Positions 22,306-61,698 of a stretch of DNA of 64,000 nucleotides are shown here, one piece after another. Under the pieces are notes generated by a model that saw only the letters and a list, made by a program, of their open reading frames with translations, ran no database searches and was not told the origin of the DNA. Positions within the stretch are counted from its first letter, which is position 1. Each line of letters opens with the position of its first letter. Position numbers and translations under genes: made by a program. The stretch comes from Picocystis sp. L7 (lineage: Eukaryota > Chlorophyta > Picocystophyceae > Picocystales > Picocystaceae). Location of the stretch: NCBI GenBank assembly GCA_020975725.1, contig QXJR01000006.1, positions 930,001-994,000 on the forward strand. Reading direction: 5' to 3'.

Positions 22306-22493
22306 AGCCTCCCGTGGATCTCCCTTCCCGCGTTCTTTTGATGGGCTACGTCCCGTCGAGGATGGTCGAGCTTGCCCTCCCGTGGTCGAGGACGCTCGAT
22401 TGCTTGTAGCATATGGCGAAGAAAACGATTTTTACCCTGAGTAACAAGGGTCTTAGACCGACTTTTCCTTCACGACTCGTAGAGGATGCCCCC

Positions 22494-22521: not shown

Positions 22522-22586
22522 CGGGTTTTTCGACTTTTCGGGGTTCGGAAAATTTGGGGCAACGGATAGATTCGTGAATATCGAGG

Positions 22587-22623
22587 CCCGATTTTTCATT
22601 TTTCCCGAAAAACGAATTCCTCT
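22587..22623 (-). repeat. Harbinger right terminal inverted repeat
   Basis: Inverse complement of 19102-19138 over 37 bases; followed directly by the ATT target triplet. Confidence 0.93.
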
Positions 22624-23535
22624 ATTGAAACCTTTTTGAAACAACACCAACAGGTATACAAAGCTATTCTGCAGAATTTACAGAAACAGGCAGACTCATT
22701 CCGTGAACTGCGAAACAACCGTACGCCACGTAGCTTCAAGCCAGGAGATTTGGTCAAGGTTCAGTATGGACTCAAAAGTCCTACTGACAAACACAAACTC
22801 GATCCCTACGATGTAGGTCCGTTCACCATTGCAGAGGAGTTGGGGAAAGGAGCGTATCGCCTGGAGCTACCCAACAACTCCCCATATTCTGATCGTATTA
22901 ATGCAGACCGCTTGGAAAAATGGGTGGATTCGGACCTCACAGTATTTCCTGCACATTCAGGACATCCGCAGCATGCATTACTGCCTCCAGACACTCAAGT
23001 GGAGCCAATTCATCACACCATCCGTTACTTGCTGCGAGATTATTCGTTGTTCCCAGCAGCCAACATTCGATATTGGGTCCAAACGGACTCCGTCTCGACC
23101 CCGTTCATGTGGATCGATGAAACAAGCTATCTTTTGGAAGAATTCCTCTCATTGGAAGAAACAAATGGCTGCATACCAGAAACAGGTATAACACAGATCA
23201 ACTTTCAGCATGTTAAACAGCACAAACAACAGGTATATTTGCAGAGTCCTGCACCCATCATGGTCAACACCTGGACCTCAAGCCACCTGCCCATGCAAGT
23301 CCGTAAACGACCGCGGTTCAAACCACCTGCTAACGAGCCGCATGCCGTGGTACAGGACCTCTTCCATGTCACCGATGACAAATCAGAATTCTACCAGGGA
23401 ACAGTGATCTAGAAGCATGACAAGAGATGCCGTGTGCAATGGACAGATGGATATGAATCAACACATACCGTGGCAGAAATTCAGACCATGCTCTATGACC
23501 CCATCAGTTACATTTATGATTTCAATCATGCTTAG
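22624..23535 (+). mobile_element. Ty3-type retrotransposon remnant: integrase C-terminal part and tail
   Basis: Fossil fragment, truncated at its left by the Harbinger element. It encodes the region after the integrase core: KPGDLVKVQYGLKSPTDKHK, DPYDVGPFTIAEELGKGAYR, INADRLEKW and the tail DETSYLLEEFLSLEETNGCI. It aligns along its length with the corresponding part of the complete Ty3 element at 37.3-45.05 kb (KVKVQYGLKGPANKHK, IHADRLEHW, LPLEEHNGCIP) but differs at many residues, so it belongs to a related, older subfamily. It is a broken remnant; gag, protease, RT and the methyltransferase part are absent here. Confidence 0.88.
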
Positions 23536-24373: not shown

Positions 24374-24694
24374 TACGTGGGGGGCGTTTCGGGATCTGCT
24401 GGATTGGGGGGGGGCGTGGCGCCCAAAGTACGAGGTATTTGGTCCTGAAATTCAAACCGTACATGATCCATGGGGCGTACAGCTCACCTACCAAATCTCG
24501 TTGTCCTACCATCACTCTGTGAGTGGCAGTGCCCCCGAGGGTCACCGCTGGTAGGTATGACAGGACTGGAGGGGGGGTACTTTCAGCCCCCCTCCCCAGG
24601 CACACAGAGGCAACGAGTGGAAGCTTTGGGGTGGAATCGAAAGAGGAAAGAACAAATTCAGCACCGACAGGATTTCAAGGCAAAACGCTTCGTG

Positions 24695-25798
24695 ATGGGG
24701 AAGAAGCGCACAAAAAAGCCATCACCAGGCCTCATGGAGGAAGCGGCCATCCAGGCCACCAAAGCGGCGTACAAGGTGCTGAGTGGGAATCTCTCCGCCA
24801 CGTCCAAGGTTATGAAGCGGAGTTGGGTGACAGTGAAGTCTTGGGTGAAGGATCGTAAGCCCAAAGCTTCCCCCTCTTCGAAACGCCGTTCCCTCTCTTA
24901 TGCCCGTGGTCATGACAAGTGGCTGTGCAACTTGCTCAAGTCTCGTGCACTTGAAGGCCAGGCCATGGGGACAAGGGACGTCATGAACGAGTGGGAAGCA
25001 CGGTACGGACGGAGAGTACCGTTGAGGACCTTGCAACGGCTGTTGAAGGATTTGGGGGTGAAGACCAAGGTCCAAAAAAAGGTGATGAAGTTGCAGGCCT
25101 CACACAAGGCCAATAGAGTGAAGTTTGCGGAACGGCACTTGGGGGATGATTTTGAGCGGGTTCTTTTCACGGATGCCCACCAAATTTACCTGGGAACCAC
25201 CAAGCACAAAGGCTCCAAACGAACCCTAGTCCCTCCTGGTACCACACCCCTCGTGGAGTACAACAAGGCCCCCCCAAGAATCAAAGTGTATGGTGGGGTG
25301 TGTGCTCGTGGACTCACAGGCCTAATGACAGTCACGGGGACCACAGGGCAGCCTTGTGCCTTCAAGGATGGACAAGGGAAGGTGTCCAAGGGTGTAGGAC
25401 AGCAGGAGTATGCAGAAAAAGTCCTCCCTTGGCTGATGAAGGAGGGCACCAGGTTGTACAAGAAGGCCCCCTGGACCTTTCAACAGGATGGGGATGGGGC
25501 CCATCGATCGAAGGCCACCATTCTCAAGTTGGTGGAGCTCTCCACTCAAGCTCACGTGGATCTCATGTTGGATTGGCCCTCTCTCAGCCCTGATCTCAGT
25601 CCCATTGAAAACGTGTGGTCTTGCTTGGACAGGAGGGTGGAAGCCATGAGACCCACCACATTGGAAGAGCTCAAAACCTGCACCTTTCGTGCATGGAAGG
25701 AGCTCTCCAAAGAGGGGCTAGGTTCCAAGCTCCTCAAAACCATGCCTAAGAGGCTTGAAGAGGTCATCCTTAACCGTGGTGGCTTCACCAAGTATTGA
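24695..25798 (+). CDS. Tc1/mariner-superfamily transposase (DD39E spacing)
   Basis: A 367-residue transposase. The N-terminal half holds a helix-turn-helix (AAYKVLSGNLSATSKVMKRS, WVTVKSWVKDR) and a second one (RRVPLRTLQRLLKDLGVKTK). The catalytic part shows RVLFTDAHQIYLG (D160), PWTFQQDGDGAHRSKAT (D265) and DWPSLSPDLSPIENVWSCLD (E305). The second D and the E are separated by 39 residues, outside the common DD34D/E groups. No stop or frameshift is seen. The ATG at 24695 gives a family-like length; upstream in-frame ATGs at 24557 and 24470 are possible. I could not find terminal repeats close to the gene. The gene is enclosed by the two TA-flanked repeats, which may or may not belong to it. Confidence 0.88.
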   Translation: MGKKRTKKPSPGLMEEAAIQATKAAYKVLSGNLSATSKVMKRSWVTVKSWVKDRKPKASPSSKRRSLSYARGHDKWLCNLLKSRALEGQAMGTRDVMNEWEARYGRRVPLRTLQRLLKDLGVKTKVQKKVMKLQASHKANRVKFAERHLGDDFERVLFTDAHQIYLGTTKHKGSKRTLVPPGTTPLVEYNKAPPRIKVYGGVCARGLTGLMTVTGTTGQPCAFKDGQGKVSKGVGQQEYAEKVLPWLMKEGTRLYKKAPWTFQQDGDGAHRSKATILKLVELSTQAHVDLMLDWPSLSPDLSPIENVWSCLDRRVEAMRPTTLEELKTCTFRAWKELSKEGLGSKLLKTMPKRLEEVILNRGGFTKY

Positions 25799-27184: not shown

Positions 27185-28360
27185 CGGTTTATCTATTTGT
27201 AGCCAGGCTACAAATTAGCCAGTTTTTTCCTCTGCGGGATCAACCACCGTCCGTTCCATTCGAACCAAACATCGAGGAGTAAATATACACTTTTGAACAA
27301 AAGATGCAGAGGAACGAGGATTCCTCCTCGTGTCTTCGAAATATTCGCTTGAACGATTCACCGATTCATCGATCGCCTGTCTCGAAAGCGACAACTGCCG
27401 CAGAGCGATTCCCGCTCCATTGTGAGGCGAAGGGGGGGCACCCTTGGGTCTCACCGGAGGACAAGGAAACGACTAAGCCAAAACAACCAAAGGACTCATA
27501 CATTGATCGACCTGCTGAGCCATTTCCGACGACTTTCCCGCCACAGACCACCGCGAAAGAACGCGAACACAGCCGAGAAAAAGACGGACGTCGATCAACA
27601 CGTCTCGGCAGCCTGTTCACACCCGCCAGCAGCAACCGAAAAGACAGCAGGCGCCGACCGTGGGTGTTGTTGCGGGCTGCATTTGCGACATCCAGGACAG
27701 CAGGTGACGGTATCGGACAGCCAGGTGGGCTGCTTTGGAGGCATCCAGGACAGCAGGTGACGGCATCGGACAGCCAGGTGGGCTGCTTTGGAGGCATCCA
27801 GGACAGCAGGTGACGGCATCGGACAGCCAGGTGGGCTGCTTTGGAGGCATCCAGGACAGCAGGTGACGGTAATAGAGGCAGCCAGGTGGGCTGCTTTGGA
27901 GGCATCCAGGACAGCAGGTGACGGCATCGGACAGCCAGGTGGGCTGCTTTGGAGGCATCCAGGACAGCAGGTGACGGCATCGGACAGCCAGGTGGGCTGC
28001 TTTGGAGGCATCCAGGACAGCAGGTGACGGCATCGGACAGCCAGGTGGGCTGCTTTGGAGGCATCCAGGACAGCAGGTGACGGCATCGGACAGCCAGGTG
28101 GGCTGCTTTGGAGGCATCCAGGACAGCAGGTGACGGCATCGGACAGCCAGGTGGGCTGCTTTGGAGGCATCCAGGACAGCAGGTGACGGCATCGGACAGC
28201 CAGGTGGGCTGCTTTGGAGGCATCCAGGACAGCAGGTGACGGCATCGGACAGCCAGGTGGGCTGCTTTGGAGGCATCCAGGACAGCAGGTGACGGCATCG
28301 GACAGCCAGGTGGGCTGCTTTGGAGGCATCCAGGACAGCAGGTGACGGTAATTGAGGCAG
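27185..28360 (+). repeat. MULE copy 1 left terminal inverted repeat
   Basis: Outer 500 bp followed by the 53-bp array; inverse complement of 30866-31988 apart from one extra unit. Confidence 0.92.
27689..28360. repeat. 53-bp tandem array, left arm (about 12.7 units)
   Basis: Unit starts CATCCAGGACAGCAGGTGAC, then GGCATCGGACAGCCAGG and TGGGCTGCTTTGGAGG. A variant unit has GTAATAGAGGCAGCC or GTAATTGAGGCAGCC in place of the middle part. Because 53 is not a multiple of three, all frames are open through the array, which explains the long proline/serine-rich chance frames. Confidence 0.95.
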
Positions 28361-28490
28361 CCAGGTGGGCTGCAGTTAAGAGCCACCTTTGAAAGTTGGT
28401 TGGAAAAGAGTTAAGGAGGTTGAGCTGGAGTGTGCTGTAAATGTGGTAAATGACTTCATCTTCTCAACAGCTGCATCTGCTATCCTTGAA

Positions 28491-30842
28491 CTACTTATGA
28501 ATCTCCGTACATGGCCTCCGCCTTTTTTGCTGTGGTCTCCCCCTGCCACGTACCGATGGAGGGTTTAACATTTGGCATGCTCCTTGCGCATGGATTGGAA
28601 CGTTAGGGGGTGACCCAAGCGATGAGTGTTTTTCTACTATGGTGGCTGCAAGTTTGTCAAGTTCCCTTAGTACGATGTCGGTAGTGCTTTGATCATTCAC
28701 ACATGATGCCAACTCACATACATATTTGGCCTTTTGTTGGATTGCTACATAAACTTGTTCTTTTGTTTGCAATTCTTTCTCTCTAATGGCCAATAACTCA
28801 ACATTTGGAGCATTGCTTGTTGAGTAAAAGTCTTTATATGCATTCAATGTTCGTTGGTTGCATTCAAGCTTCCAATTTTCATTGAATTCATCACCATTGA
28901 ATGAGAAGATTTGCTTGTGAATATAGAGAGCCAACATATGCCTACAAGGCAAGCCCATGTTTAAGCTATATTGGCATGAACATCTCCCAAGGGAAGTTGA
29001 GCGGCTGTCCAATCTTGATGATATTCCTAGCTCCGCATCCAAAGAATTGGTAGTTTCAATGGTTTGCTCGGTAGCTTCATTAGCACCCTCCATACGGACA
29101 CTATTTGGCTCGTTGTGAGTCGAATTTGTACGAATTCTTTGAACACGATATTGTTCACTTGCCATCCCACCTTCTTTACTCACAAGGTAATATTGTGCTT
29201 GGTTTAGTTGCCCGCTCAGATGACGCCATGCAAATGGAGTGATGAAATCAGCCGCACTATCAAGAAGAGGTGAATGCAAAATCTGGCTAGCTTGAAATAG
29301 TCTCCCATGTAGAACACGCATATAATTTTCACTCATTTTCTCATTGGCGTATTCAGACAACTTGTTCAACAAGTGAGTTAACGAACTCCGAGAGGAAAGA
29401 AACCCCTTGATGGCAGCGTGTATAGATTCTGACCGTTGAGTGGAATGAGCCCCTTGAGTGAAATGTTGCCAAGTCCATCTACTAGCCCATTGTCTCCTTT
29501 TTGCATACATCATATCTAAGTACCTTGTTGCTTTTTGTGTCGTCGTCCACTTTTTAGAAGGCATAGTTGAAGAGCCCATTGATTTGCCGTCTGCTTGGTA
29601 TGTCCCTTCATCGAGTGGGGCCTCTACTTGGGACGTTTTCCAATCATTGTGATCTTCGAAAGATGTACCTTCAGCACGTTTTCCACCCTTGTTGGCCCTC
29701 TCTGCTAGAACCTTCGAAACAAGCTCCTTGAGCTGTTCAAAATTTCTCTCAAATGATTCGATTGACCGGGCATCCGAGTCCATTGCTATCTCCCAGAATA
29801 ACTTGCGAAATGTGGACCATGAATTCCCAAGAATCGGCTTCAAGTTCTTCACCACGTTTTGTGCAAAGTGCCATAGGCATAGCAAATGAGTTACTTCCGG
29901 CCATGTACTCTTCAATGCATATGCCATCGCTTGGTCACCATCTGTCAACACCACACGGGGTGCATGACCATTTGAAGCATCCTCGAGGGATTTGAAAACC
30001 CACTCAAAATCTTCAACGGTCTCTTGCACGAGCAAAGAGCAAGCAACAATGACCGTCATCCCATTTGCATTAGTTGTACAAAAACACCCAAGCTTCATCC
30101 CATGTCTGTTCGTGGCATGACTAGTATCATAAAGAAGAACCCGCGAACTCGAAGCTTTGATCCACGCCTCTTTACCCTCCTCGAGGGTGAAGAATGCCCT
30201 CGACAATCTTCCTTCATTATCGCAATGAATGTTCCACGACTTGCTATCATGACGGTTGCGAAGTAGATTTAGAAAGTCACTACAATCTCTTGCTTTTTCC
30301 CCCAAAGAAGGTGCCAACTTGTTACAAACATCCTTGTATGTCCACATTGGTGTTTCTCCTTTGTCTTTCATCATTTGTTGTAAGCTCACATGTATATCTC
30401 GCATCCGCATACCCGATCGTAACAAGGATTGCCCATAATCCAATACTTCATTGGGAATGGTCCGTTCCGGGGGTATTACCCGCAATTCACCCACATGATC
30501 CTCCTTGAACAATTCATGGTTGTGAACTAGGGAAATAAAACGTTTCAAGTACCATTTGCCATCACGTTCCTCAACGATGAACCCATAGGGGCAACCATTA
30601 CATTGAGTTGTTGTTCGCCGTATATGGGCTTGAGAGGGGCGGTTGCCACTTCTGCGACACAAGATTTTCTTCCTTTGTCCAGATTTTTTTGTAGCCGGTA
30701 TCGACCCACCAAACCGAACCCACGATTTACCATCTTCACACAAACTTAAAAATGTGTTCACTTCACACAAAGCCCCCTCAGCCGTAGACCAAGGGCCCTG
30801 TGGGAAGCCAACAGGCCCAATATGGAGTAAACTTTGCTCCAT
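28491..30842 (-). CDS. MULE transposase with SWIM zinc finger
   Basis: A 783-residue transposase from the ATG at 30842 (MEQSLLHIGPVGFPQG); the frame is open into the array upstream, but that part is repeat. The N-terminal region carries a FAR1/WRKY-like zinc element (CNGCPYGFIVEERDGKWYLK ... HNHEL). The MULE DDE core follows: LLYDTSHATNRHGMKLGCF near residue 238, VVLTDGDQAMAYALKSTWPE near 299, and LCLWHFAQNVVKNLKP. A SWIM finger lies near 620-634 (CSCQYSLNMGLPCRH). No stop or frameshift, so it may be functional. It cuts and pastes the element via the long inverted repeats. The second copy at 61699 is almost identical. Confidence 0.93.
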   Translation of the reverse strand: MEQSLLHIGPVGFPQGPWSTAEGALCEVNTFLSLCEDGKSWVRFGGSIPATKKSGQRKKILCRRSGNRPSQAHIRRTTTQCNGCPYGFIVEERDGKWYLKRFISLVHNHELFKEDHVGELRVIPPERTIPNEVLDYGQSLLRSGMRMRDIHVSLQQMMKDKGETPMWTYKDVCNKLAPSLGEKARDCSDFLNLLRNRHDSKSWNIHCDNEGRLSRAFFTLEEGKEAWIKASSSRVLLYDTSHATNRHGMKLGCFCTTNANGMTVIVACSLLVQETVEDFEWVFKSLEDASNGHAPRVVLTDGDQAMAYALKSTWPEVTHLLCLWHFAQNVVKNLKPILGNSWSTFRKLFWEIAMDSDARSIESFERNFEQLKELVSKVLAERANKGGKRAEGTSFEDHNDWKTSQVEAPLDEGTYQADGKSMGSSTMPSKKWTTTQKATRYLDMMYAKRRQWASRWTWQHFTQGAHSTQRSESIHAAIKGFLSSRSSLTHLLNKLSEYANEKMSENYMRVLHGRLFQASQILHSPLLDSAADFITPFAWRHLSGQLNQAQYYLVSKEGGMASEQYRVQRIRTNSTHNEPNSVRMEGANEATEQTIETTNSLDAELGISSRLDSRSTSLGRCSCQYSLNMGLPCRHMLALYIHKQIFSFNGDEFNENWKLECNQRTLNAYKDFYSTSNAPNVELLAIREKELQTKEQVYVAIQQKAKYVCELASCVNDQSTTDIVLRELDKLAATIVEKHSSLGSPPNVPIHAQGACQMLNPPSVRGRGRPQQKRRRPCTEIHK

Positions 30843-30865
30843 GTGCTGAATGGGACCCAAGAGAT

Positions 30866-31988
30866 CTGCCTCAATTACCGGCACCTGCTGTCCTGGAAGC
30901 CTCCAAAGCAGCCCACCTGGCTGTCCGATGCCGTCACCTGCTGTCCTGGAAGCCTCCAAAGCAGCCCACCTGGCTGTCCGATGCCGTCACCTGCTGTCCT
31001 GGAAGCCTCCAAAGCAGCCCACCTGGCTGTCCGATGCCGTCACCTGCTGTCCTGGAAGCCTCCAAAGCAGCCCACCTGGCTGTCCGATGCCGTCACCTGC
31101 TGTCCTGGATGCCTCCAAAGCAGCCCACCTGGCTGTCCGATGCCGTCACCTGCTGTCCTGGATGCCTCCAAAGCAGCCCACCTGGCTGTCCGATGCCGTC
31201 ACCTGCTGTCCTGGAAGCCTCCAAAGCAGCCCACCTGGCTGTCCGATGCCGTCACCTGCTGTCCTGGAAGCCTCCAAAGCAGCCCACCTGGCTGCCTCAA
31301 TTACCGTCACCTGCTGTCCTGGATGCCTCCAAAGCAGCCCACCTGGCTGTCCGATGCCGTCACCTGCTGTCCTGGATGCCTCCAAAGCAGCCCACCTGGC
31401 TGTCCGATGCCGTCACCTGCTGTCCTGGATGCCTCCAAAGCAGCCCACCTGGCTGTCCGATACCGTCACCTGCTGTCCTGGATGTCGCAAATGCAGCCCG
31501 CAACAACACCCACGGTCGGCGCCTGCTGTCTTTTCGGTTGCTGCTGGCGGGTGTGAACAGGCTGCCGAGACGTGTTGATCGACGTCCGTCTTTTTCTCGG
31601 CTGTGTTCGCGTTCTTTCGCGGTGGTCTGTGGCGGGAAAGTCGTCGGAAATGGCTCGGCAGGTCGATCAATGTATGAGTCCTTTGGTTGTTTTGGCTTAG
31701 TCGTTTCCTTGTCCTCCGGTGAGACCCAAGGGTGCCCCCCCTTCGCCTCACAATGGAGCGGGAATCGCTCTGCGGCAGTTGTCGCTTTCGAGACAGGCGA
31801 TCGATGAATCGGTGAATCGTTCAAGCGAATATTTCGAAGACACGAGGAGGAATCCTCGTTCCTCTGCATCTTTTGTTCAAAAGTGTATATTTACTCCTCG
31901 ATGTTTGGTTCGAATGGAACGGACGGTGGTTGATCCCGCAGAGGAAAAAACTGGCTAATTTGTAGCCTGGCTACAAATAGATAAATCG
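30866..31988 (-). repeat. MULE copy 1 right terminal inverted repeat
   Basis: Array of about 11.7 units (30866-31484) followed by the 500-bp outer part; inverse complement of the left arm. Many units here have CTTCC instead of CATCC at the unit start (read on the minus strand). Confidence 0.92.
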
Positions 31989-35524: not shown

Positions 35525-37298
35525 AAATGAATTGGTTGGGTTTTTCTCTTGCACCAAGTCTTCATCTTTCGTTCTTCTTCATAGTTTCCGTTACTTGTGA
35601 TTCGGTTTCAAGATAGGGAACCTTTCTACCAAGCATCCGTCTACTAGAAGGTTACAACCTTTTCGAGCTACTAGTCGTTTTCGGCTTGCGGAGTCGCGCC
35701 TAACCCGTTTCTAGCATTCCAAAGGTCTTTGTCGATACCGCACATCAAGAGCTTTCGAATTATGGGTGTACTGTAGAATAGAGTTTGTACCCACGGAAAT
35801 ACGGAAGGACAAGGCTCACCTAACCCTTGCCCACAAAGCGAACACCAAGGGACCCCATAAGTGACACCGACGACAATGTTGAATTATGCATGGACTAGAG
35901 TATTTCTACGCAAACATTTCGACGAGAGGATGGGACGTTAGATGTGTAACAACGTGAATTGAATGCTCGAGTTGGGTTACGTACCTTCCTTGACAGCATG
36001 GATTCATCCAAATGCATTCCTATATTTCCCCGCTAAAAGATTGGCATTTGTATGGCCCGGACTAGCCAATATATACCAAGTGGTGAGGAAGCAAAGGGGA
36101 GGTCTCTATTATTTGGATCCTTAAGTTGCGAAAGCCTCACGAGGAAATGTGGGGCACATAATTACAAGGCACTTTCTAGAGTTTTATGTGGCCGTCTTCA
36201 AGCATGCATTGCTTGGGGCTTTCTAAAGGACCCGTCAGTCGACTTGAAAATACATATTCGACTTCAATACACCGAAAAATCGTGCCTTTTTCGATCAATA
36301 ACTTTTTGTCTTGTCCAACGAGCGCTTGGATTAGCTTAAGGCAAGGAGAGTCGTCGCATATGGTCGGCGTTTAAGAACGGCCCCAGTGAAGGCGGTCTTT
36401 GGCCATTCTTGAGAGATATGTCGGCTTCTGTGTGATATAAAGTGTGTAAAAAGAAGATGCTTCGCAAAGCCCGTCCTATTGCATGCCTCGAACTCCCTCC
36501 ATCCTCTCCCATACAAATGGGCTTCTAATTGATTTCCACATGGGGCGTGAGGATGCTTTGTGAGAACGACAATCTGGACTCAACCCTCTTTTAAACACAT
36601 ACACGGCACATTCTTCGATTGATGTTGTTCGAAAATTTTACTCCACCAGATCGCAAAGATGTTTGAATGTCTTTAGATAGACGGTCATCCTCTTGGTCGG
36701 ATTACGCAATGGTGACACAACTCATTTCCTTGCTCTTTTTAGCGAAGTGTCCGTAAAGTTTTGTCGGAACTCACGTGGTCTTGGTGATGTGGTTCGTTCG
36801 TGTAAGAACGACTTCGAAGAGTCTTATTCTTTCCCATAAGAGAGCTTTCTTCCATGTGTCTTCCCGCCCTAGGCTCGGTTAGCATGGAATGCACCAAGGA
36901 GGGTTTGGAGAAGCGTCTTATAGGCATGGTCGTCATGCCAAGGTGAAAACAAAACACGGAGACGCGTGGCACAAGTTGCTCGGCAAGTTCTTAAGCTTAT
37001 TCAAGCACGGAGGGAAACCCCTCATTTTATGGGCTACCTCCAAAGAGAAGGTCCGTAGGTAGCCCTCCAAAGCTACTTCATGGTGTGAGATTGCCGTGGA
37101 CTTCCTGCCCGCCACTGGATGGCTCATGGGACTTTACACGCTAGCCCATATTTTATGTAACATCTCCAACCTTGTATCCCCATGCAAATTTTTGGATAGA
37201 CTCGTGCCAAGGAGATCTTCGATTCGATTCAAATTGATCGAATCGACCGTTGTTTACTTATGCTCTGTTTAAGAAGTGTACATCGTTAGCAAACTTAT
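35525..37298. other. Intergenic region, nothing recognised
   Basis: About 1.8 kb of unique-looking sequence between the solo LTR and the complete Ty3 element; no conserved frame. Confidence 0.4.
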
Positions 37299-38028
37299 TG
37301 TTGCAAAAGCGTCCGTGAGTTTTGGACACTCACACACGTGCCTTGGAGGAGAGCATGTGTCGGGAAGGAGCCGGTGCACCGGTCTTGGGCGAGGGTCCTC
37401 GCACTCACGGACAAAGTCCCCTTCTAGCCGGCTCGAGGCGTGGTACCTAGCGAGGTCGACCTCCTGGTGGTTGGGCAAGCGCGTAGGCCTCAGCAAGTCG
37501 TTGAGAGAGGACGGAAGGAGGCGCGCTGGTGGTTGGCAAAGTCAAAATTCTATCACAAAGCAAAGAGGGACGATAGGTCTACCTCTCTCACCGCCTCTCA
37601 CTGGCGGTTGGAATTGGAGCAAAGGGGGTGTCTTATCCGCCTTCGTCCTCCTCTAAGTCACACCTGACCGTCCATTTTGCTCGCCCCGGGGCGACTATGA
37701 GCTGTCACTTGTTCGGCACCGTTCAGCCCCCTCAGGCCCACCCCTCACAATTGTGGATTGGGACGGGGTCGGCTGGTTCCCTTCGGTCTGTCTCGATCAA
37801 AGTCCCCGGTTCCCCTTACAAGAAGCCCGTTCTGATCGAGGTGACCGTGCTTCCATACGCCTCGGGGAAAACTGGTTCTGATCCCGGATTGATAAGGCCG
37901 TTGCACTCCAATGGGGTATCATATCCCTTACTAGCTGGGTAGCCCTAGTGGTTCGGACCCGTTGGTCTGGTCCCATACGGACCCTGGTGGGCCTCGTTCA
38001 CAGGAGGAGGCCCCTGCCCTATGCAACA
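37299..38028 (-). repeat. 3' LTR of the Ty3-type element
   Basis: 730 bp, TG...CA ends with the longer inverted tips TGTTGCA/TGCAACA. Preceded on the plus strand by CTTAT. Confidence 0.96.
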
Positions 38029-38044
38029 CTCTCCCGGCTCCCTG
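38029..38044 (-). promoter_or_regulatory. Polypurine tract of the Ty3-type element
   Basis: On the coding strand AGGGAGCCGGGAGAG directly precedes the 3' LTR, the position from which plus-strand DNA synthesis is primed. Confidence 0.7.
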
Positions 38045-38459
38045 GGACGAACCCGGCTATACCTGAAAGCCATAGATGTATGCTATGGGGTCATACAAAA
38101 TTGATCTGATCTGGTCTGCAAGATATTAGTCTTTCTTGCCATCTGTCCATAGCACCTCAAAGAGCCCATTGTCTTCATCTGTCACCAACCCTGATAATAA
38201 GCTGACTTGTCCTGCCCCTCATGGAAAAGCTCCTGCACAACTGCGCCGGTTAGGTCAGTCCGTTGCGGCTTGCGTGGCCGCTGTCTGGTCTGAAAAGGTA
38301 GCTTGGTGAATGGCCAGGTGTTGATCATAATTGGGCTGGGTGACTGCAAGTAGGTAGTTTTCTTATGCCTCTGAATTGCTTCATAGTTAGCATCTGTGAT
38401 ACCTTGTTCTGGAATACACCCGTTGTGTTCTTCCAGTGGTAAAAAGTCATCCAACAAAG

Positions 38460-39720
38460 CTGCTGTTTCATCCACCTAGAAGTAGCGTTGCGAAGGATCT
38501 GACAGATTGCTTTCAACCCAATAGCGTACTGGCCTCGCTGGGAACGCGGAGAAATCGCGCAGCAGGTAGCGTCGTATGCGGTACAGCCTTGACTCGGTAC
38601 ACATAGCATCTATATCCGGCAGCGGGGACGCTTCCAGCTGTCGATCTTCGTTCATCGGAAATAGCGTGAGGTCCGAATCTGTCCAGTGTTCAAGGCGATC
38701 AGCGTGGATTCGTTCTGAACATGCAAAGCCAGTTGGTAAGTCCAATTCGTAACAGCCGTTCCTCAGTGCCCGTTTAATGACATAAGGGCCAACAAAGTAT
38801 GGGTCCGGCTTATGTTTGTTAGCAGGCCCCTTGAGACCATACTGCACCTTCACCTTGTCCCCAGCTTCAAATGTTTTCTTCGGTCGATGCGCGGCAGCGG
38901 CAGCCATGCGCTCCGCAGCCTTACGCAAATCGGCCTGGACAGTATCGTAGACCGATCGGTGCTGTTTTAATAAACTGGTTACCCGGCGGTCGAATGTCGT
39001 TACGATGTCTGATTGATTAGTGCCCTCTATGGGTGGAATCTGCAAATGCCAGGGGAGTCTGGATGGACATCCAAATAATAGCTGAAAGGGTGAGAAGTTA
39101 GTAGCTGTATGCACCGAATCGTTGTATGCGTGAGCTGCTGCTTGTAAGAACAGATCCCATTGATACTTATCAGAGCATGTTGTTCTCAGCGTTTGCAGGA
39201 GCGTACGATGCTGTCGCTCTGCTCCTCCCAACGATTGAGAATGGTATGGAGTGCCAGTAACATGGCGGACTCCCAAAGCTGCACAGAAAGCTTGAAACAA
39301 CGATCGGTAGGCGGGCCCATTGTCGGTATGTATATGAACTGGGGTGTGGTACTTGTACACCAGGTTATCTATTAAGCACTGAGCCTGACGATGCGCACTC
39401 CATGTGGAGTGGATCGGTATATAGATAGCGAACTTCGTGAAGCGGTCCACCACTGTCAGGACAGCATTATGGCCAAGAGCAGTGAGCGGTAGATTTTCAA
39501 CCACATCTATCACAACAGTATGGAAAGGATATGGACAGAACCTGAACTCTGGGCAAAGCTGACTGTGTCGGGACCGGTTACTGGGCTTCTCCAGTTGGCA
39601 CACAGGGCAGCGTGCGACGAAGAGTTCGACGTGTCTCTTCAGGTCCTTCCACGTGAAGTGCCTTGAGGCATCTGCATAAGTTCTCGCTGAACCAAAGTGT
39701 CACTGATCATGAACCATGTG
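38460..39720 (-). CDS. Ty3 integrase region (fossil part, approximate limits)
   Basis: Contains a zinc-binding start (ARCPVCQLEKPSNRS), the catalytic acidic residues in VVIDVVENLP, HIHTDNGPAYRSLFQAF and SQSLGGAERQHRTLLQ, and the C-terminal KVKVQYGLKGPANKHKPD block shared with the remnant at 22.6 kb. A further tail (LPLEEHNGCIPEQG) follows to about 38060. Coordinates are rounded. Confidence 0.92.
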
Positions 39721-40024
39721 TAGCAGCTCCTGTCTGAGGCTATTGTCTGCAGGCACGACCAGTACTGGCTGTGCATTGTCACTGGTTGGAAAAAGAAGGC
39801 TGTCCTTGACAATATGGTCTTCAGTTGGAGAATGAAGAAGTTCCTGGTAACTGGCATCATTGTCGGCAGCGATGCGTATACGCTCTAGTAGAGTAGGTGG
39901 CTCCCCTTGCGTAGCGCAGAGCATTGAGCGCACCGATCGTGGCGTAGTAATTGACGCGATCGATCCACACACAGTCCCTGCTGGACTGCGGCATGCTAGC
40001 GGTCTAAGCGTCCGTGTGTGAATT

Positions 40025-40905
40025 TGCCAACGCAGCAACATGTGGGCAATCCATCCAACTGGAAATGCATTACCACACATGCGCTGCCGGCTTGCATCGC
40101 TTACGTTCGCTGCAGCAGTATCACCAGGCTGCATCCCAACCAATCGCTCTCGTTCGTTAACGCTCAGCAGGCGAAGTTCGCCTCCTTCATCATGGACCCA
40201 GGTGGTTTTCGCACGATGGCTGTGCGACTGTGAGCTAGCCATCAAAATTGGACATTTCAAGCGAGGTCGATTCCGAGCATCGTGTTGGACTGTTGCACCA
40301 GCATCCAAGCACTCCTGCAAGGTAAGAGGTATTGGTCCCATCGAGAGGCGAGGTTCCTGCTGAGGGGGTAGTGAGGTCCAGCATAACCTTGTACGAGCCT
40401 GCGCCCCAAACTGTGACAGGTCCTCAACTACTGGGGATCCAAACCATTCAGCAATCGTGTCCAGGTGAGATTCCAGGTGAGTAGCAAATGGGGTGCACTC
40501 TAATATAAAGTCCAGACTGTTCAAGCGCTTGTGTATATTAGCAACTGTAGTGAACAGCTCTCGTTGGTCAAACAGTCCCAGGGGAGGTTTGCCTTGGTCT
40601 GTGCTCGCTCGTGAAAAGGGCTGGCAGGGTACTCCTGCTATAAGTAAGTGTACCTTGGGGAGTTTTCGCCGCTGCCCTAATATGGTCACATCATTGCCGT
40701 AACGGAATATGTCTTTGCGCGTAAACAGCCCTAGACGGGCGAGTCGTACTTGATTGAATACCCTCTGTATGACGCTACGGCTATCTGGGTCCCTTTCGAC
40801 GGCAATGTAATCGATCGTAATATCTGTGGATGGAGGCAGAGCAATTTCCAAAGCGCGTAGCGTTGTACCCATACCAGCACACAGATTCACTATGCAGTAG
40901 ACTGA
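40025..40905 (-). CDS. C5-cytosine DNA methyltransferase domain inside the Ty3 pol region (approximate limits)
   Basis: About 290 residues between the end of RNase H (GADYLSRHSAK) and the integrase. Motifs in the canonical order: I, IVNLCAGMGTTLRALE (AdoMet loop, consensus FxGxG-like); II, DYIAVERDPDSR, with the acidic residue that contacts AdoMet ribose; IV, LIAGVPCQPFSRAS with the PCQ catalytic cysteine; VI, DFILECTPF, where the usual ENV is ECT; VIII, GAQARTRLCWTS (QxRxR-like); IX, LLSVNERERLVGMQPGD; X, RQRMCGNAFPVGWIAHML (GNAxP). The predicted reaction is methyl transfer from AdoMet to cytosine C5. The variable region before motif IX is about 70 residues, so a target recognition part exists. 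No replication-foci, PWWP or chromo domain is seen. Lies in one element with RT, so it is a passenger of the retrotransposon, not a host gene. Confidence 0.93.
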
Positions 40906-40914
40906 TCCACTGTC

Positions 40915-43020
40915 CACCTTAGCCGAATGGCGCGATAAGTAGTCTGCCCCAGTATTTTCTGATCCTGGTCTATACTCAACAGTGAAGGGGGCAAAGTAGG
41001 CTAATTTCTCAATCCATCGCATCTCGCGCGGAGACAGCTGCTCTGTAGACTTGTTGTTGAGGAAATGGCTGGCTTTGTTATCCGTAAGTACGCTGAAGTG
41101 CTGACCAAACAACAAGTGTCTCCAGTGCTGCAGAGCATACAAGATGGCACAGGTTTCCTTCTCTGCTGGATGATAATTCTGTTGGGCTTGATTCAGCTTC
41201 TTTGACCATTATTCAACTGGGTGCCACTCCCCTTGCTCATCCTGCTGCATCAGAACTGCTCCCATGCCGATGTCCGAAGCATCCGTCTCGACTCGGATCG
41301 GTCGGTCCTCATCGAAGAGTGCCAGGACAGGTGGGTTCGTGAGTGCTGCAACCAGCTTGTTATAAGCTTCTTCTTGTGGGCCTTTCCAGTAGGATGTGAA
41401 CCTATGTTTCATCGATACCTGGTTCAGCTCGGTCAACGAGGCTGTAAGTTCAGCATAATGCGTAACAAATCGCATATAGAATTGGCACAGCCCAAGGAAG
41501 GCCATATTATCGCGTTGCGACTGCGGTCGCGGGAACTGCTGGATCTTGGTAAGTAGGTGGTTGGTACAGGCCAACTGTCCATTACGTATCCGAAAGCCTA
41601 CCCACTCCAGAGTACTTCTGAAAAAGTGACACTTCGATCGTTTCAGCCGGATGTCGGCCTGTTCACAGGTAGCGAAGAATTCCTCAAGGTGTTGGAAATG
41701 CTGTTCTTTTGTTTCAGAATGCACCAATATGTCATCCATGTACACCTTTAAGTAGAGCAGGTGACCAAATATTCTGTTCATCATGCGCTGAAACATCGCA
41801 GGCGCGTTGGCAGCACCCATGGGCATGACCTTCCACACATAGGATCCAAAGGGTGTGACCACTGCAGTTTTATCGATGTCGGCAGGATCCATCCTAACCT
41901 GGTGGAACCCATCCAAAGCATCCAGCGAGGAAAAGTATTTCGCACCTCTCAAGTTCTGCAGGTAGTCATCTATACGGGGCAGCGGATATCTGTCCTTGAC
42001 AGTAACATTGTTAAGCAGGCGGTAGTCAAACACGACCCGCCAGCCCCCGTCTTTCTTCGGTACTAGGATTACTGGGGCTCCCCAGCTGGAGCCAGCACAA
42101 AGGTCCATTTTACCGGCATCGACGTATTCGCTGATTAACTCCTTTAGGGCAGCCTGCTGGTGAGGGGATAGACGATAATAATTCCTGTACTGCGGGGTCG
42201 CATTTTCAGTGAGCTGTATTTTGAAGGCCTCTCCGCTGACACGCTCTGGCGGTAGCTGCTTACGAGGCTCAAATAAGCCCTTATATCGGTGATTGATCAG
42301 TCGGTCCAGCCGGTATTGATCGCTGTGGTCCAGCTCCCATTCATCGCTGACTTTTGTCCGCATGTGGTCAAGGTCTGCTTCTTCATCGATGATTTCTGGT
42401 CTGGGATCCAGAGGCTGTATCATAAGCAATAGACAGCCTGGGTCCTGTACCGCCTTCCGAGCTTCGCATCTGGGGACGATTAAGTCCAGCTTTCTGGATG
42501 CGATGAACTGGTGATCTCCATACACAGTGTGCTTTCTGCCATTACTGTTCTTTAAGACCATTCGGTGGTTCTGCCAGTCTAGGGCTATCAGGTGTTTGTC
42601 ACAGAAGGTCCCCCCTAATATGCAATCAAATGTCTCCAGTGGTGCAACTGCAAAGGGTACTTGACCACGGAAGCCATCGATCGTAAAGGTGGCCTGAATT
42701 ACTGGGGCTGTATGAACCTGCTGGCCTACGGCTACGGTGAACTGCACGACATCGCCAGTGTTCTTCCAGGTCACCCCTGCTGGGTCAGCGGACTGCAGTT
42801 CATGAAATAGTTTCTCGCTGATGAATGAGTAGCTTGCTAATGTATCAAGGTAGGCTTGTGTCCTGATTTTGTTCGTTTTCTTTCCAAAGTAAGTTTCTGC
42901 AGCTAGGAATTCCTGTCTAGGCCTTATATTACTCAATGAGTTCAGGCAGACAGGAGTCCTTTCATTGGTAACCGGGGCTGCTGCTGGTTTCGCTCCCGGC
43001 TCCGCTCCGGTGACCTGGGT
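40915..43020 (-). CDS. Ty3 protease, reverse transcriptase and RNase H region (fossil part, approximate limits)
   Basis: Protease: RTQAYLDTLASYSFISE, a DT-A-S variant of the aspartic protease motif. Reverse transcriptase: WRVVFDYRLLNNVTVKDRYP, FSSLDALDGFHQVRMDP, TPFGSYVWKVMPMGAANAP and the catalytic LKVYMDDILVHS. RNase H: IRVETDASDIGMGAVLMQQ and FSVLTDNKASHFLNN. This order (protease, RT, RNase H) and the sequences place it in the Ty3/Gypsy group (Metaviridae). Confidence 0.95.
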
Positions 43021-43039
43021 CACCGGGCGGAGTGTACTC

Positions 43040-44280
43040 AGTTTTTTGGGGCACCCATAACAGATGCCATTTTGCATGAGGACTGATCATGGCCGTAACG
43101 ACGGCAGCGTTGGCACAGCCCGTGCGCAAGGCACATGTTCTTCTCTTCCTGGGACAGCTTGGCTCCGAGCGGCTTGTTCGATAGCTGAGTCTGCACCTTT
43201 ATGATAGCACTCTTCTGCCCTTCATCGACATCATCGAATCGCTTTCGCTCTCTCCTTGCGGAGCCGCTGTCCTGATTATCCTTCGATGGCGCCGGCATCG
43301 CAGCAGCTACTGGCCTTCGCATAGATTCCAAACGGGGACGGTGATCGCTGTTGCGACGGGCAGTTGCGTAGCGATTCGTCCATTGATCATCAGCTGTCTT
43401 GGTCTCTTTGCGGGGCTGTTCAGCAGCTTCCTTTTCTAGCTTGAATATGACTGATGCTAAGTTTCCTGGTTCCATGTCAGGAACTTTATCCACATCCATC
43501 AGGTGGTCGAGGTGCTTATACAATGCTCGCCGGAGGTAGGCTGGCAGTCCATGTTGCAGCCTTGCTGATATATCATTCTCCGTTAGCGTACGGCATACAA
43601 GAGATGTACTTGCGTTGACGACGAATGTCAATCGCACCAGCCGGTTCAGCAACTGTAAAGCATTTTCGCTCCGGCGCATACGGGTAGTATGCAATTCGCG
43701 CCATGCCTCAGGGCCTGGGTATTGATTCTGGAACGTACGGCGGAGGTAAGCGTACAATTCTTCCACTGATTTGAGGGCACCTGGATCGCGCATAATGAGA
43801 TTCTGCACCATTGATTTTGCTGTGCCTCCCAAAGCTTGACTGATCGCAAGTACCAACTGCTCTTTTGGACGGTCGAGAGCGTATGCTTGGCACCAACACA
43901 CAACATCACGATACCAGTAAGTCAAAGCATATGGATTTTCATCAAGCTCCAGTCCAGTAAATTTTTCAGGCTTCTCCAGGGAGACCTTTTGTATGTTCTT
44001 TGAGTCCTGGAGGGTTGTTCCATACAATGTGGTGAGATGAGGAAGTCCCTCTTCCTCGGAGGGCGCATGCGTCTCTCCTACGGTTGTCACTTGCTGATTT
44101 TCTTGGTTCTCATCGGTGATATTTTGTTCTTCACCATCAGTTGGGTTTGTTTGCAAGGCTTCAAGCTGACCTTCGAGCTCAGCAATGCGCTCTTGGAGTG
44201 TGCTTCGCATGGCTCGTTCTTCTTCCAAGTCCCTACGGAGCGAACCCATTCGAGTTGTGTGCTCCAGATCTTCCATTTAC
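43040..44280 (-). CDS. Ty3 gag region (fossil part, approximate limits)
   Basis: About 410 residues. An N-terminal coiled coil (EEERAMRSTLQERIAELEGQ), a capsid-like core (YWYRDVVCWCQAYALDRPKE ... FQNQYPGPEAWRELHTTRMR) and one zinc knuckle CQRCRRYGHDQSSC (CX2CX4HX4C). Overlaps the following pol region by a few dozen bases in a different frame. Confidence 0.88.
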
Positions 44281-44322
44281 TTGAACGTACAGCAGTCTTC
44301 TCTCAAGTACAAGCTTAGACAG

Positions 44323-45052
44323 TGTTGCAAAAGTGTCCGTGAGTTTTGGACACTCACACACGTGCCTTGGAGGAGAGCGTGTGTCGGGAAGGAGCCGGTG
44401 CACCGGTCTTGGGCGAGGGTCCTCGCACTCGCGGACAAAGTCCCCTTCTAGCCGGCTCGAGGCGTGGTACCTAGCGAGGTCGACCTCCTGGTGGTTGGGC
44501 AAGCGCGTAGGCCTCAGCAAGTCGTTGAGAGAGGACGGAAGGAGGCGCGCTGGTGGTTGGCAAAGTCAAAATTCTATCACAAAGCAAAGAGGGACGATAG
44601 GTCTACCTCTCTCACCGCCTCTCACTGGCGGTTGGAATTGGAGCAAAGGGGGTGTCTTATCCGCCTTCGTCCTCCTCTAAGTCACACCTGACCGTCCATT
44701 TTGCTCGCCCCGGGGCGACTATGAGCTGTCACTTGTTCGGCACCGTTCAGCCCCCTCAGGCCCACCCCTCACAATTGTGGATTGGGACGGGGTCGGCTGG
44801 TTCCCTTCGGTCTGTCTCGATCAAAGTCCCCGGTTCCCCTTACAAGAAGCCCGTTCTGATCGAGGTGACCGTGCTTCCATACGCCTCGGGGAAAACTGGT
44901 TCTGATCCCGGATTGATAAGGCCGTTGCACTCCAATGGGGTATCATATCCCTTACTAGCTGGGTAGCCCTAGTGGTTCGGACCCGTTGGTCTGGTCCCAT
45001 ACGGACCCTGGTGGGCCTCGTTCACAGGAGGAGGCCCCTGCCCTATGCAACA
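44323..45052 (-). repeat. 5' LTR of the Ty3-type element
   Basis: 730 bp, same tips and length as the 3' LTR and nearly identical to it. Followed on the plus strand by CTTAT. I could not recognise a tRNA primer-binding site directly inside it. Confidence 0.96.
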
Positions 45053-45855
45053 CTTATCGATAATCAAGACTAGCATAAGCTTACGTTTACCTATTGCTTA
45101 TGTGCATCGGGATGGGACTTGCATCGTTAGAGGCCCCACGTAGAAGAGTGGTGATGTATTTGAAAACGAATTCTACAAAACACAACGTTGGAAAGGTACG
45201 TAAGCATTGAAAGTTTCTTCACACGTACAATAACTCGAAAGCGCTTTTTGCATGCGTATTATCTTACTAAGTGCAATATTGATTGCTTTTCTTTATAGCA
45301 ACACTTGCCACTTGTTGCGCTTCTACCTAATGCACTATTCAACGAGTTTGCAAGTTATGATGGTGTCGTTTTGTGTTCCTACCCTGCATTGGCTTCAATG
45401 CGTACACTTTCCCTATACAGGAGGAACTCCATATTGTACCTACTAACACTTTGTCGAAATTGTTTACTTCGAATGAAAATTCGGAAACATAACGGTATTC
45501 GCATTAGTTCGTTTGATTGTTTCCATGCTCAAAGTTGTCGTGAATAGTGCTTCTTCCACCGCTTCTGGGTAGATCTACCATGTTTATGGTTCTTTTTCTA
45601 ACGTGCTGTGATGATTGCTATGTTGTAAGCTATGACGTATTTGTAAGCCGTTCGTGCTCCAAGTCAATGTAGAATACAATGGTTTGATCTAGCAAGAGTG
45701 TAGATTTTCATTGTCCACCGTTGAACGGTTTTCGTTGCTCGAATTTCCATGTCAAAAGTATGATCCTGTGCATCTTCAATTTACGTGCAAAAGGGAAATG
45801 CACGCTTGAATGTACGAATCCCCACGTGTCCTATATATAGGATAATGAGGGTGTT
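45053..45855. other. Intergenic region between two mobile elements
   Basis: Low-GC sequence without recognised genes. Near its end (45828-45846) there is an extra diverged copy of the CCTATATATAGG motif found at the piggyBac borders. Confidence 0.45.
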
Positions 45856-46051: not shown

Positions 46052-48397
46052 ATGGCTCCGCGACGGAAGCAACGCCAGCAACGGCCTCCGAATCCGCTCA
46101 TTGGAGCGCACGTTCGCATTCCAGCAACCGAGTTTGGCTTTGAATGGGCCCGTGAAGCGCATGGGGAGGCGTGGAGCGACACGTGGTATGACGGCGTGGT
46201 ACTCCGCCTCATACGCTTACGTACAGGAGAGCAAGAGGCCATCGTTCGCTGCCACACGGCGGGCACCTGAGCGGAGGAATGGCCGGTCACCGAGGAAACG
46301 GTGAACCGTTACAGGGTTGTCGAGCAACCACCGGAAGAAGAACCGCAGCGCGCGGCCACAGAGGAAGAAAGACCGACCGGAATGGATGCGGGTGAGGATG
46401 ACGACTTGGTACCTCCACCCACGGAGGTACCACCGGAGGAGGCCTTCCTTGACGTCCAGGAGTGCGCAACGCTCCACGAGTAAGGCTTGGACCCGCTTGG
46501 AGATGGCGTGGACGCCAACGAAGTTCCTAGGAATGGTTTTGGAGTGGTGTGGGAGGAAGAGGAGGCGCATGTGACCGTCGACTCACGTGCAGCCAATGGC
46601 GTCAGGGACAGGCAGCAAGGCTATGCCTCGCCTTTGTCCTACATACCAGAGCCTTTTCGTGAGACAAAAGCACTGCAGTATTTCCTACGCTTCTTCCCGT
46701 ACGAACTGTTGCCTGATTGGACTGCTGAGATCACCAGCCATGGTCGAAGCAAGTACAACAGACCTGGTGACACTTTCTTGTCTTACGACAGAGAGTGTAC
46801 ACTTGGTGTGTTGTTGAGGGTGTTTGGGTGCTTTGTGTACATGTTGTTGCACCCTGGACAGAGCAGAAAGTCCTTCTGGCAGGTGATTGATGTGGAAAAG
46901 GACCCATTGGCGGTTCAGTTCAACCGGGACAAGTTCCTCTACACGAGGGACTTTGACCGCATCTTGGAATTCTTGGCAGCGAGTGTGCCAAAATACACAA
47001 CGGAGCGAGGATCGAGAGTGGACAGACCTGAGCAAGCTGGAGCTTGCAAGGGACCCAGAGGCACCCTGCATACACTGCGAGGTGATCCTCATTGGGAACT
47101 GCGCAGGTTCTGGGACGCATGGAATGCGCATGCATCCGGGCATTACACTCCAAGCTGGCTAGTGGTTGTGAACGAGTCCGTGTTGAAATGGATGGGCAGG
47201 TATATGCCCTCCGGGATGTTTTTGCGCAGGAAGCCTGACGACCTAGACAAGGAGCTCAAAACTATGTGTGATGGGCTAACCGGTGTTTGATTTTGCATGG
47301 AACCTGTGAATGGAGGCCTGATGAAGGAGGAGTTCTTTGCAGAATTTGGCACCACAACGGCAACCACCCTCAGGCTGATGAAGCCGTTCTTTGGCAGTGG
47401 GCATGTCTGCCTTGGTGACAGCTGGTTTGGGTCAGTCAAGACATGCTGTGCGCTGCTGGAGCGCGGTGTGTACTCCGTGTTGAATGTGAAAACAGCACAC
47501 AGGGGTTACCCCAAGGCTGCACTTCAACGTTTCCTTTCGAGTGAGCCCAACCAACCTGGACTGACTGTTTGCATTCCAGGAGAAGTCTCTGTGCGCAGGA
47601 CCCGCACCTTGATCAAGGCAACTGCCCATCGTGGGCCTGCTGGTGTACCACTCTGCTTGGTGTCTTCCTGCTTCACCACACAGCCAGCAGGCACCATGAA
47701 GTACATGATCAAGCATCCAACGGACACCACTCATCTGCTGGCAAAGCAAATCCCAGTAGATGAGACAACGCAGATGTACAGATCCAAGTACAGCATTGTG
47801 GACCAGCACAACCGTTTGCGAACAGGTAGCGTTGCGTTCCACGACGTGTGGAAAACGCACGACTTTCGAATTCGCGAGTTGAGTGAGCTGATTGGATTGG
47901 CGGAGGTGAACACCTTCCTGCTCATGCGTGCAAACGGAACAGGGCAGGTGCGACAGAAGCAATGCAGGATGCTCCTCGCAAAGGAGCTCCTGGAAAATCC
48001 GTGGATAATGGCAGAGTTGGAGACGGAGAGGCAGCAAGCTCTCCGTCTTCGTCCGTTGATCGCTGCGATGGGTGATTTCGGTGGAGGAAGTGGACACCGT
48101 CTGGTGGCACTTGAGGAAGTGATGAGGACGAGTGGCGAAGACACGCAAGTGAGGAAGGTGACGCAGCGACGCTGCGTCATGTGCGGTAGGAAAGCCTCGG
48201 CAGCATGCCAGGCATGTCACAAGCCAAGCGAAGGCATCGTTGCCTACCTCTGTGGGCCATACACGGGCCGTGATTGCGTTGCACTGCACATGGCGGGAGT
48301 CCCCTCTAGGCGACGCCGGAGGGTGTCGGGGGCGGACGTGCACACACCTGCACCGGCCCGTCTGATGCGAGGTCGGAGGCGTAGCTCCACAGAGTAA
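46052..48397 (+). pseudogene. piggyBac-like transposase (DDE_Tnp_1_7) with three in-frame stops
   Basis: One reading frame of 2.35 kb contains the whole protein. The N-terminal region (IGAHVRIPATEFGFEWAREA, WYDGVVLRLIRL) resembles a Tudor-like module. The catalytic region has SYIPEPFRETKALQYFLRFF, WQVIDVEKDPLAVQFNRDKF, VVVNESVLKWMGRYMPSGMF, then GHVCLGDSWFGSVKTCCALL, VYSVLNVKTAHRGYPK and YSIVDQHNRLRTGSVAF. The C-terminus is the Cys-rich domain (RRCVMCGRKASAACQACHK, YLCGPYTGRDCVALH). In-frame stops are TGA at 46268, TAA at 46481 and TGA at 47288. No frameshift is needed. The two TGAs could have come from CGA by CpG deamination. As it stands the protein cannot be made in full. Confidence 0.85.
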
Positions 48398-61675: not shown

Positions 61676-61698
61676 ATCTCTTGGGTCCCATTCAGCAC

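Follow-up and report, generated by a model that had tools for sequence, protein, structure and literature searches.

A family of Ty3-type retrotransposons with a DNMT3-like C5 cytosine methyltransferase domain in Pol

The window considered here, a 64,000-nucleotide stretch of contig QXJR01000006.1 (forward-strand positions 930,001 to 994,000; coordinates below are those of the window), contains on its minus strand, at 37299-45052, a complete Ty3-type long terminal repeat (LTR) retrotransposon with a C5 cytosine methyltransferase in its Pol polyprotein. The methyltransferase forms a clade that is present in at least six pol subfamilies of the same genome and on two public contigs, rather than being a lone capture, and comparisons between copies show purifying selection on it. 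We give a probability of roughly 0.55 to the reading that it is a DNMT3-like enzyme which would be made by frameshifting as part of Gag-Pol, packaged in particles and used to methylate the element's own cDNA.

The initial annotation had placed a cytosine methyltransferase between the RNase H and integrase of a Ty3-type element, and profile searches bear this out. PF00145 matches the minus-strand frame 39703-41208 with an E-value of 6.6e-10 (39.4 bits; cut-off 22 bits) and the domain taken alone with 41.3 bits; the match is flanked by those to PF17917 on one side and to PF17921 and PF00665 on the other. The same family matches all ten members of A1 at the limit used. Since the plus-strand frame at 40025-40905 contains seven stops, the domain is read on the minus strand, from about 40905 to 40025; a region of 320 residues (39985-40944), holding motifs I to X, was used for comparisons. 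As had been described, the motifs follow one another in order: I (LCAGMGT), II (VE), IV (GVPCQPFS), VI (ECTPF), VIII (QARTR) and X (GNAFPV). The PCQ of motif IV, with the catalytic cysteine, lies at 40621-40629, the variant ECT of motif VI at 40492-40500, QARTR at 40387-40401 and CGNAFP of motif X at 40060-40077, all on the minus strand.

Conservation was assessed in an alignment of 33 copies from six subfamilies. All 33 have GVPCQPFS, PCQ included, and the EC of motif VI; 32 have the glutamine of QxRxR. The domain thus has the catalytic PC, the motif VI glutamate, QxRxR and motif X in the order of a C5 methyltransferase. Motif VI reads EC[T/V] in every copy and not ENV, as it would in DNMT3. 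The acidic position of motif I, for which 32 of the 33 copies have the column, is occupied by Asp or Glu in 31 copies and by Asn in the window copy only (40885-40887, minus strand). The predicted structure of the domain has a pLDDT of 75.8, with values below 50 at residues 107-116, which hold the catalytic cysteine.

The element is bounded by a 5′ LTR at 44323-45052 and a 3′ LTR at 37299-38028, each 730 bp long and bounded by TGTTGC...GCAACA, and the two differ at three of 730 positions. A target-site duplication, CTTAT, which is assigned to neither strand, lies outside them at 37294-37298 and 45053-45057, so that the paired TG...CA repeats and short duplication of Ty3/Gypsy elements are both present. 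All internal features are on the minus strand. The gag open reading frame (43038-44276; 412 residues from an ATG) matches no Pfam family above its cut-off and overlaps the pol frame. Abutting its stop is the heptamer A_AAA_AAC (43041-43047), a known type of −1 slippery site and here a putative frameshift site into pol. The heptamer stands immediately 5′ of the gag-frame stop in six of seven other loci searched (L013, L017, L026, L014, L016 and L070); it does not in the seventh, L030, where gag and pol share one common frame.

Pol lies in three pieces. The first (41209-43086) holds a protease-like region, with an aspartic protease match below its Pfam cut-off, the reverse transcriptase (RT; PF00078, 3.9e-38) and the start of RNase H, and stops at an in-frame TAA (41209-41211). 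The second (39700-41208) holds the remainder of RNase H (PF17917, 2.7e-18; 40993-41205) in the same frame as the methyltransferase, then the methyltransferase itself and the stretch up to the integrase zinc finger, and stops at an in-frame TGA (39700-39702). The third (38476-39699) is the integrase, with H2C2 (PF17921, 5.1e-10) and rve (PF00665, 5.2e-14) above their cut-offs and an SH3-like tail below its own. An interrupted purine-rich stretch adjoining the 3′ LTR (38029-38043) is a candidate plus-strand primer site. The order protease, RT, RNase H, integrase is that of Ty3/Gypsy Pol, the window protease being recognized only below its cut-off. A related copy, L014, has an unbroken frame of 1676 residues with RT, RNase H, methyltransferase and integrase in the same order; no protease family is listed for it.

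The element had also been called full-length and young. Its length is complete, as the LTR pair and the target-site duplication show, and its LTRs are young; its pol is nevertheless interrupted by the two in-frame stops, so that this copy cannot make an intact Pol, and it has the Asn in motif I. The window copy is a broken member of its family. It also shows 19 private changes over those columns of the methyltransferase that 14 subfamily members share, while its LTRs differ at only the three positions given above. Either the two LTRs became alike through homogenisation, or the copy had decayed before it was mobilised in trans.

The genome surveyed comprises 20.5 Mb in 30 contigs. PF00145 gives 121 matches in it, five host genes among them, and the window domain used as a query gives at least 125 scored matches (193 candidates) with 51-100% identity. 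When the two lists are merged there are at least 162 places, six of which fall in the five host genes by our reading, the other places having been inspected in part. Of 150 scored RT matches (273 candidates), 117 are followed by a methyltransferase domain 547-914 bp downstream; the other 33 have none among the matches listed. Frames of at least 1660 residues, with no stop within the match, hold 55 of the 125 scored matches, and 15 of the 125 contain a stop within the match. The domain is therefore not confined to the window copy. That a fragment of a host gene recently landed by chance in this copy alone has a negligible probability, given the number of matches in several subfamilies, the linkage to RT, the relatives on other contigs and the position of the host DNMT1 and CMT in another part of the methyltransferase tree. 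A chance match or single fragment was likewise rejected on the significance of the PF00145 match, the at least 125 matches and the linkage to RT.

Of the 162 methyltransferase places, 68 are on two contigs, C3 and C4 (1.16 and 1.23 Mb). Intact copies make up eight of 50 on these contigs and 47 of 75 elsewhere (Fisher p 1.8e-7), and C3 and C4 may be outlier chromosomes rich in transposable elements. Evenly spaced methyltransferase matches occur on C4 at 1048782, 1055931 and 1063080 (7149 bp apart) and on C3 at 345498 and 352522 (7024 bp), which suggests tandem elements sharing LTRs.

Purifying selection on the domain is seen in two mid-range comparisons, in which omega is 0.091 (dS 0.52) and 0.077 (dS 1.28). 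In five pairs of longer frames, the methyltransferase has a pS of 0.71-0.77, which is near saturation, and a dN of 0.11-0.29.

Among solved structures, the catalytic domain of DNMT3A/DNMT3B is the best match of the element domain both by profile and by fold. Bacterial chains rank below DNMT3A in the profile search, in a VIA-align comparison over Foldseek's PDB list and in the tree. In the last of these, the element clade (support 100/99) stands beside DNMT3A and two phage sequences (93/88), and the joint group has a support of 100/99; the host DNMT1 and CMT sit elsewhere. This tree has 32 rows and a midpoint root, with DNMT3 represented by one 221-residue piece of DNMT3A and by no protist sequence. 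Its prokaryote rows were picked by hand (six of 21 loci, L072-L092, and eight of 35 proteins, P0149-P0183); a filter on motifs and length removed the host DNMT2 as well as L063 and L065, two of six loci tried on the phage side, and the DRM gene was left out because of its rearranged motifs. Within these limits of one partial DNMT3A and a midpoint root, DNMT3 is a nearer neighbour of the domain than Dcm, DNMT1 or CMT are, and by profile, structure and tree the domain is DNMT3-like rather than bacterial Dcm-like. A bacterial Dcm origin was considered and rejected: the NCBIfam dcm model matches all ten members, but the window domain scores 41.3 bits against its cut-off of 100.65, and DNMT3A outranks the bacterial sequences.

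DNMT3A and DNMT3B share with the element domain the order of motifs, and their target-recognition and motif IX-X region can be aligned with it. They differ in having GSPCNDLS and ENV where the element domain has GVPCQPFS and EC[T/V], and in their PWWP or ADD domain, neither of which is listed for the Pol of L014. The two phage sequences that group with DNMT3A beside the element clade, L062 (IMG/VR) and L093 (Pseudomonas phage Epa40), are free-standing genes, unlike the Pol-embedded element domain; L062 has GVPCQPFS, as the elements do, with EET as motif VI. Against the element profile L062 scores above the DNMT3A piece, itself a truncated sequence (63.8 vs 50.0 bits; best stretch 52.1 vs 49.3), and among viral models Foldseek ranks first A0A6J5S8R0, a cytosine methyltransferase of a phage (E 5.4e-15, TM 0.65 by query). 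Both results count against a plain origin from a host DNMT3, and the source of the methyltransferase may have been either a host or a phage.

The 33 RT matches without a C5 domain among the matches listed include frames of up to 2672 residues. The one that was read over its whole length, L030 (G000:C4:1000600-1008400), is a Ty3 element with a single gag-pol frame of about 2670 residues, and near its C-terminus, after the integrase, it has a Dam-like adenine methylase (PF05869, 1.7e-11). Where the C5 enzyme sits in its relatives there are about 210 residues that match no Pfam family, and no C5 methyltransferase is recognisable. Set against the methyltransferase, the slot gives an hhalign E-value of 0.0016 at a probability of 16%. 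A profile test gives z 2.3 and Gumbel P 0.029, with at least one of 150 shuffles scoring higher, and in an anchored ungapped test the observed value was reached by 126 of 1500 shuffles. The slot linkers of eleven more elements (L031-L041; one long piece and ten short stretches) nearly duplicate the L030 linker, and so provide no independent test. Dam-like adenine methylases have been reported in DIRS and Ty3 elements (cited in PMC6338049 and PMC5890265). These are likewise DNA methylases inside a retrotransposon polyprotein, of an enzyme class unrelated to the C5 domain of the window.

The reading to which we give a probability of about 0.55 draws on the architecture, the slippery sequence, the conservation of motifs, the copy number, purifying selection, the predicted fold and kinship. 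A −1 frameshift at A_AAA_AAC would lead to the methyltransferase being made only as part of Gag-Pol, and so to its presence, alongside RT and integrase, in the virus-like particle, where it might be released from the polyprotein. There it could methylate cytosines of the element's double-stranded cDNA before or at integration, and the mark may benefit the element by making the new copy resemble resident, already modified DNA. The initial annotation had suggested that such an element could hide from or exploit host silencing, or seed methylation in its surroundings. Purifying selection together with the kept catalytic residues argues for catalysis. Double-stranded cDNA would be the most economical target, and cDNA was also suggested as a target for DIRS elements in an earlier study (PMC5890265).

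Several observations weigh against this reading. The asparagine of ENV is absent from motif VI. The Gypsy-borne enzyme of Klebsormidium was inactive in yeast, a result that its authors call inconclusive (PMC5890265). CpG is not depleted, the observed/expected ratio being 0.68-0.96 in eight copies vs 0.73-0.97 in six host-gene loci, two of which overlap; this ordinary CpG content argues against long-standing dense CpG methylation, or else for another sequence context or efficient repair. A mutational signature at CpG is mild at most: eight of 23 private C-to-T or G-to-A changes are at CpG, against a background of 116 of 512 C/G positions in CpG (59 private changes in 14 copies, with gapped columns dropped). 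Closer pairs of copies show higher omega values, 0.15 and 0.33, and in the subfamily of the window the median is 0.49 (90 of 91 pairs, one pair of very low dS having been dropped), although higher values in closer pairs are expected for copies that decay after insertion. The methyltransferase also evolves faster than RT, with a dN 1.7-3.2 times that of RT in the five pairs of longer frames. Finally, L030 indicates that the C5 domain is not indispensable for Ty3 elements in this genome.

Some of the same observations would fit a domain whose retained role in Pol is to bind nucleic acid or to serve as a structural module, such as a tether or an integrase helper, with methylation weak or irrelevant. 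The absence of CpG depletion and the replacement of ENV by EC[T/V] in all 33 copies are in keeping with it, and the 210 residues in the slot of L030 might be what is left of the domain, although the tests given above do not decide the matter. However, the catalytic cysteine, the motif VI glutamate and QxRxR vary little or not at all among subfamilies down to 36% identity to the window domain. A binding module would not need catalytic residues, and their invariance makes this explanation an unlikely one. Somewhat less likely still is an enzyme that works chiefly in trans, either on host chromatin, by seeding methylation near insertions, or on RNA, by modifying that of the element. The high copy number in a small genome is consistent with such action, and the DNMT1 (L029), CMT-like (L018) and DRM-like (L024) enzymes of the host could maintain or extend the marks, but the slippery site points to production within Gag-Pol and hence to an action that would be borne by the particle.

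Relatives of the family are found on contigs filed under bacteria. L070 (PUNI01000121, a 4.7-kb contig filed under a Rhodobacteraceae metagenome-assembled genome, MAG) is a closely related Ty3 element with 73% identity over the whole domain and with the domain order and frameshift sequence of the window element. L071 (NHEP01000084, filed under a TMED88 bacterial MAG) is a distant Ty3 pol in which the methyltransferase, with 28% identity (117.7 bits) and a PF00145 score just above the cut-off, again lies between RNase H and integrase; its RT and integrase zinc finger are above their Pfam cut-offs and its rve below. Both are probably eukaryotic-type retrotransposons that were mis-binned. A single query of the protein collection gave 16 family members, eight of them labelled EukProt 'Pavlova_lutheri'.

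Comparison of Pol domains suggests that the methyltransferase has moved between Ty3 lineages. Within the A/D/E lineage (seven elements, including L070) mean identity is 73.6% for RT, 62.6% for the methyltransferase and 72.1% for integrase, and in the one B/F pair it is 86% for RT and 74% for the methyltransferase. Between A/D/E and B/F the values are 38.0% for RT, 49.0% for the methyltransferase and 28.2% for integrase (that of B_L010 being cut short), and the methyltransferase is more alike than RT in 14 of 14 pairs, with a difference of 11.0 (bootstrap 4.5 to 18.7). Since this is the reverse of the order within each lineage, exchange of the cassette is the simpler explanation, and on these sequence identities it was probably exchanged by recombination. 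Against the C and TMED88 elements, methyltransferase and RT do not differ in this way, and the intervals include zero. Common descent without exchange, the RT and integrase having sped up in the B/F ancestor, seems improbable. In its favour, the RT trees with the TMED88 and C elements have very long branches and unsure placements, of which the tree tool warns, and only two B/F elements were compared, one with its integrase cut short. A change of rate alone, however, would need the acceleration to have occurred in the B/F ancestor only, whereas RT is the slower domain within both lineages.

A broader scenario, which we put forward tentatively and regard as possible rather than probable, is that an old DNMT3-like cassette circulates among distant Ty3 elements through recombination at a fixed site between RNase H and integrase, and would work, packaged in particles, by pre-marking cDNA; one lineage would have swapped it for a Dam-like methylase. 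As the element and phage enzymes branch beside eukaryotic DNMT3, the cassette may share a mobile ancestry with the de novo methylation enzymes of hosts.

The host is probably a green alga of chlorophyte-like affinity, to judge from its own methyltransferases. By our reading it has five PF00145 genes: DNMT1, CMT-like, DRM-like, and two that we assign by their motifs, a DNMT2-like gene and one more. Its DNMT1 stands beside chlorophytes, outside the core chlorophyte sequences used, with a support of 100/100 against land plants, in a midpoint-rooted tree of 26 of 120 listed matches, picked by hand and including no charophyte, dinoflagellate or haptophyte. The CMT-like gene has BAH and chromodomain, and together with the DRM-like gene it fits the green plant lineage. 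The latter (G000:C20:153500-160000) has its motifs rearranged, with IX-X before I, and its best match is 4onq (7.4e-38), followed by DRM2. DRM has been reported only in streptophytes (PMC12344493), whereas this host is apparently a chlorophyte. The initial annotation had proposed a separate acquisition if the host were neither a dinoflagellate nor a charophyte. The grouping of DNMT1 with chlorophytes against land plants, in a tree that holds neither of those groups, makes the host probably neither; the acquisition, in contrast, is that of a clade in at least six subfamilies and not a lone capture.

Over the region searched, a EukProt protein that bears the label Pavlova_lutheri (P0017) has 100% identity to the host DNMT1. 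The genome surveyed, however, has 20.5 Mb and a GC content of 51-57% in the eight stretches measured, and the published genome of Diacronema (Pavlova) lutheri is given as 43.5 Mb with 73.25% GC (PMC8379373). The EukProt 'Pavlova_lutheri' proteome is likely mislabelled or contaminated and derived from the organism of about 50% GC surveyed here.

Elsewhere in the window there is an array of 53-bp tandem repeats at 30772-31561, and the same repeat, in its protein reading, is present at three places of the window, with similar coding repeats in the open reading frames 27366-28463 and 60732-61691. Other transposon genes lie at 21133-22431, 24467-25798, 28491-30986, 46484-48397, 58720-60138 and 22570-23412; they include two DDE_Tnp_4 genes, a Tc1-like gene, a MULE, a stop-split DDE_Tnp_1_7 (piggyBac-like) frame and a lone Ty3-type integrase tail.

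Elements of this kind are already known. Among the papers listed in searches of the open literature, preprints excluded, a single study is devoted by its title and abstract to retrotransposon C5 methyltransferases (PMC5890265). The closest precedent is KnitGypsy-Dnmt3 of Klebsormidium nitens (de Mendoza et al., 2018; PMC5890265), which likewise has a C5 methyltransferase related to DNMT3 in a Gypsy-type Pol, occurs in several copies and is under purifying selection; the window family also has its DNMT3-related domain inside a Gypsy Pol. KnitGypsy-Dnmt3 differs in its charophyte host and in repeats arranged as in a DIRS element (PMC5890265, Fig. 4 legend), where the window element has plain LTRs and a 5-bp target-site duplication. 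No Klebsormidium is among the named matches in the protein collection, most matches being without a name and the searches word-limited. SymbioDIRS-Dnmt3 and SymbioLINE-Dnmt of Symbiodinium are also high-copy retrotransposons with a C5 methyltransferase; the first has a tyrosine recombinase and the second is a LINE, whereas the window element is a Ty3 element with a DDE integrase (rve, H2C2). The SymbioDIRS DNMT3 domains methylated CpG in yeast, and the LINE enzyme was inactive in the same test, which the authors consider inconclusive (PMC5890265). Ty3/Gypsy and DIRS elements encoding Dam and Dcm have been described in several groups, including green algae, in another report (PMC6338049). The same searches turned up neither this family nor its probable host group, and neither the position of its enzyme next to those of DNMT3 and phages nor the exchange between lineages.

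To the known systems the present family adds a chlorophyte-like host, a genome of 20.5 Mb in which there are more than 100 copies and open pol frames by the dozen, related elements on further public contigs, and evidence for movement of the methyltransferase between Ty3 lineages. In a compact host with an apparent set of DNMT1, CMT and DRM, the question of a silencing target that carries a silencing enzyme becomes testable.
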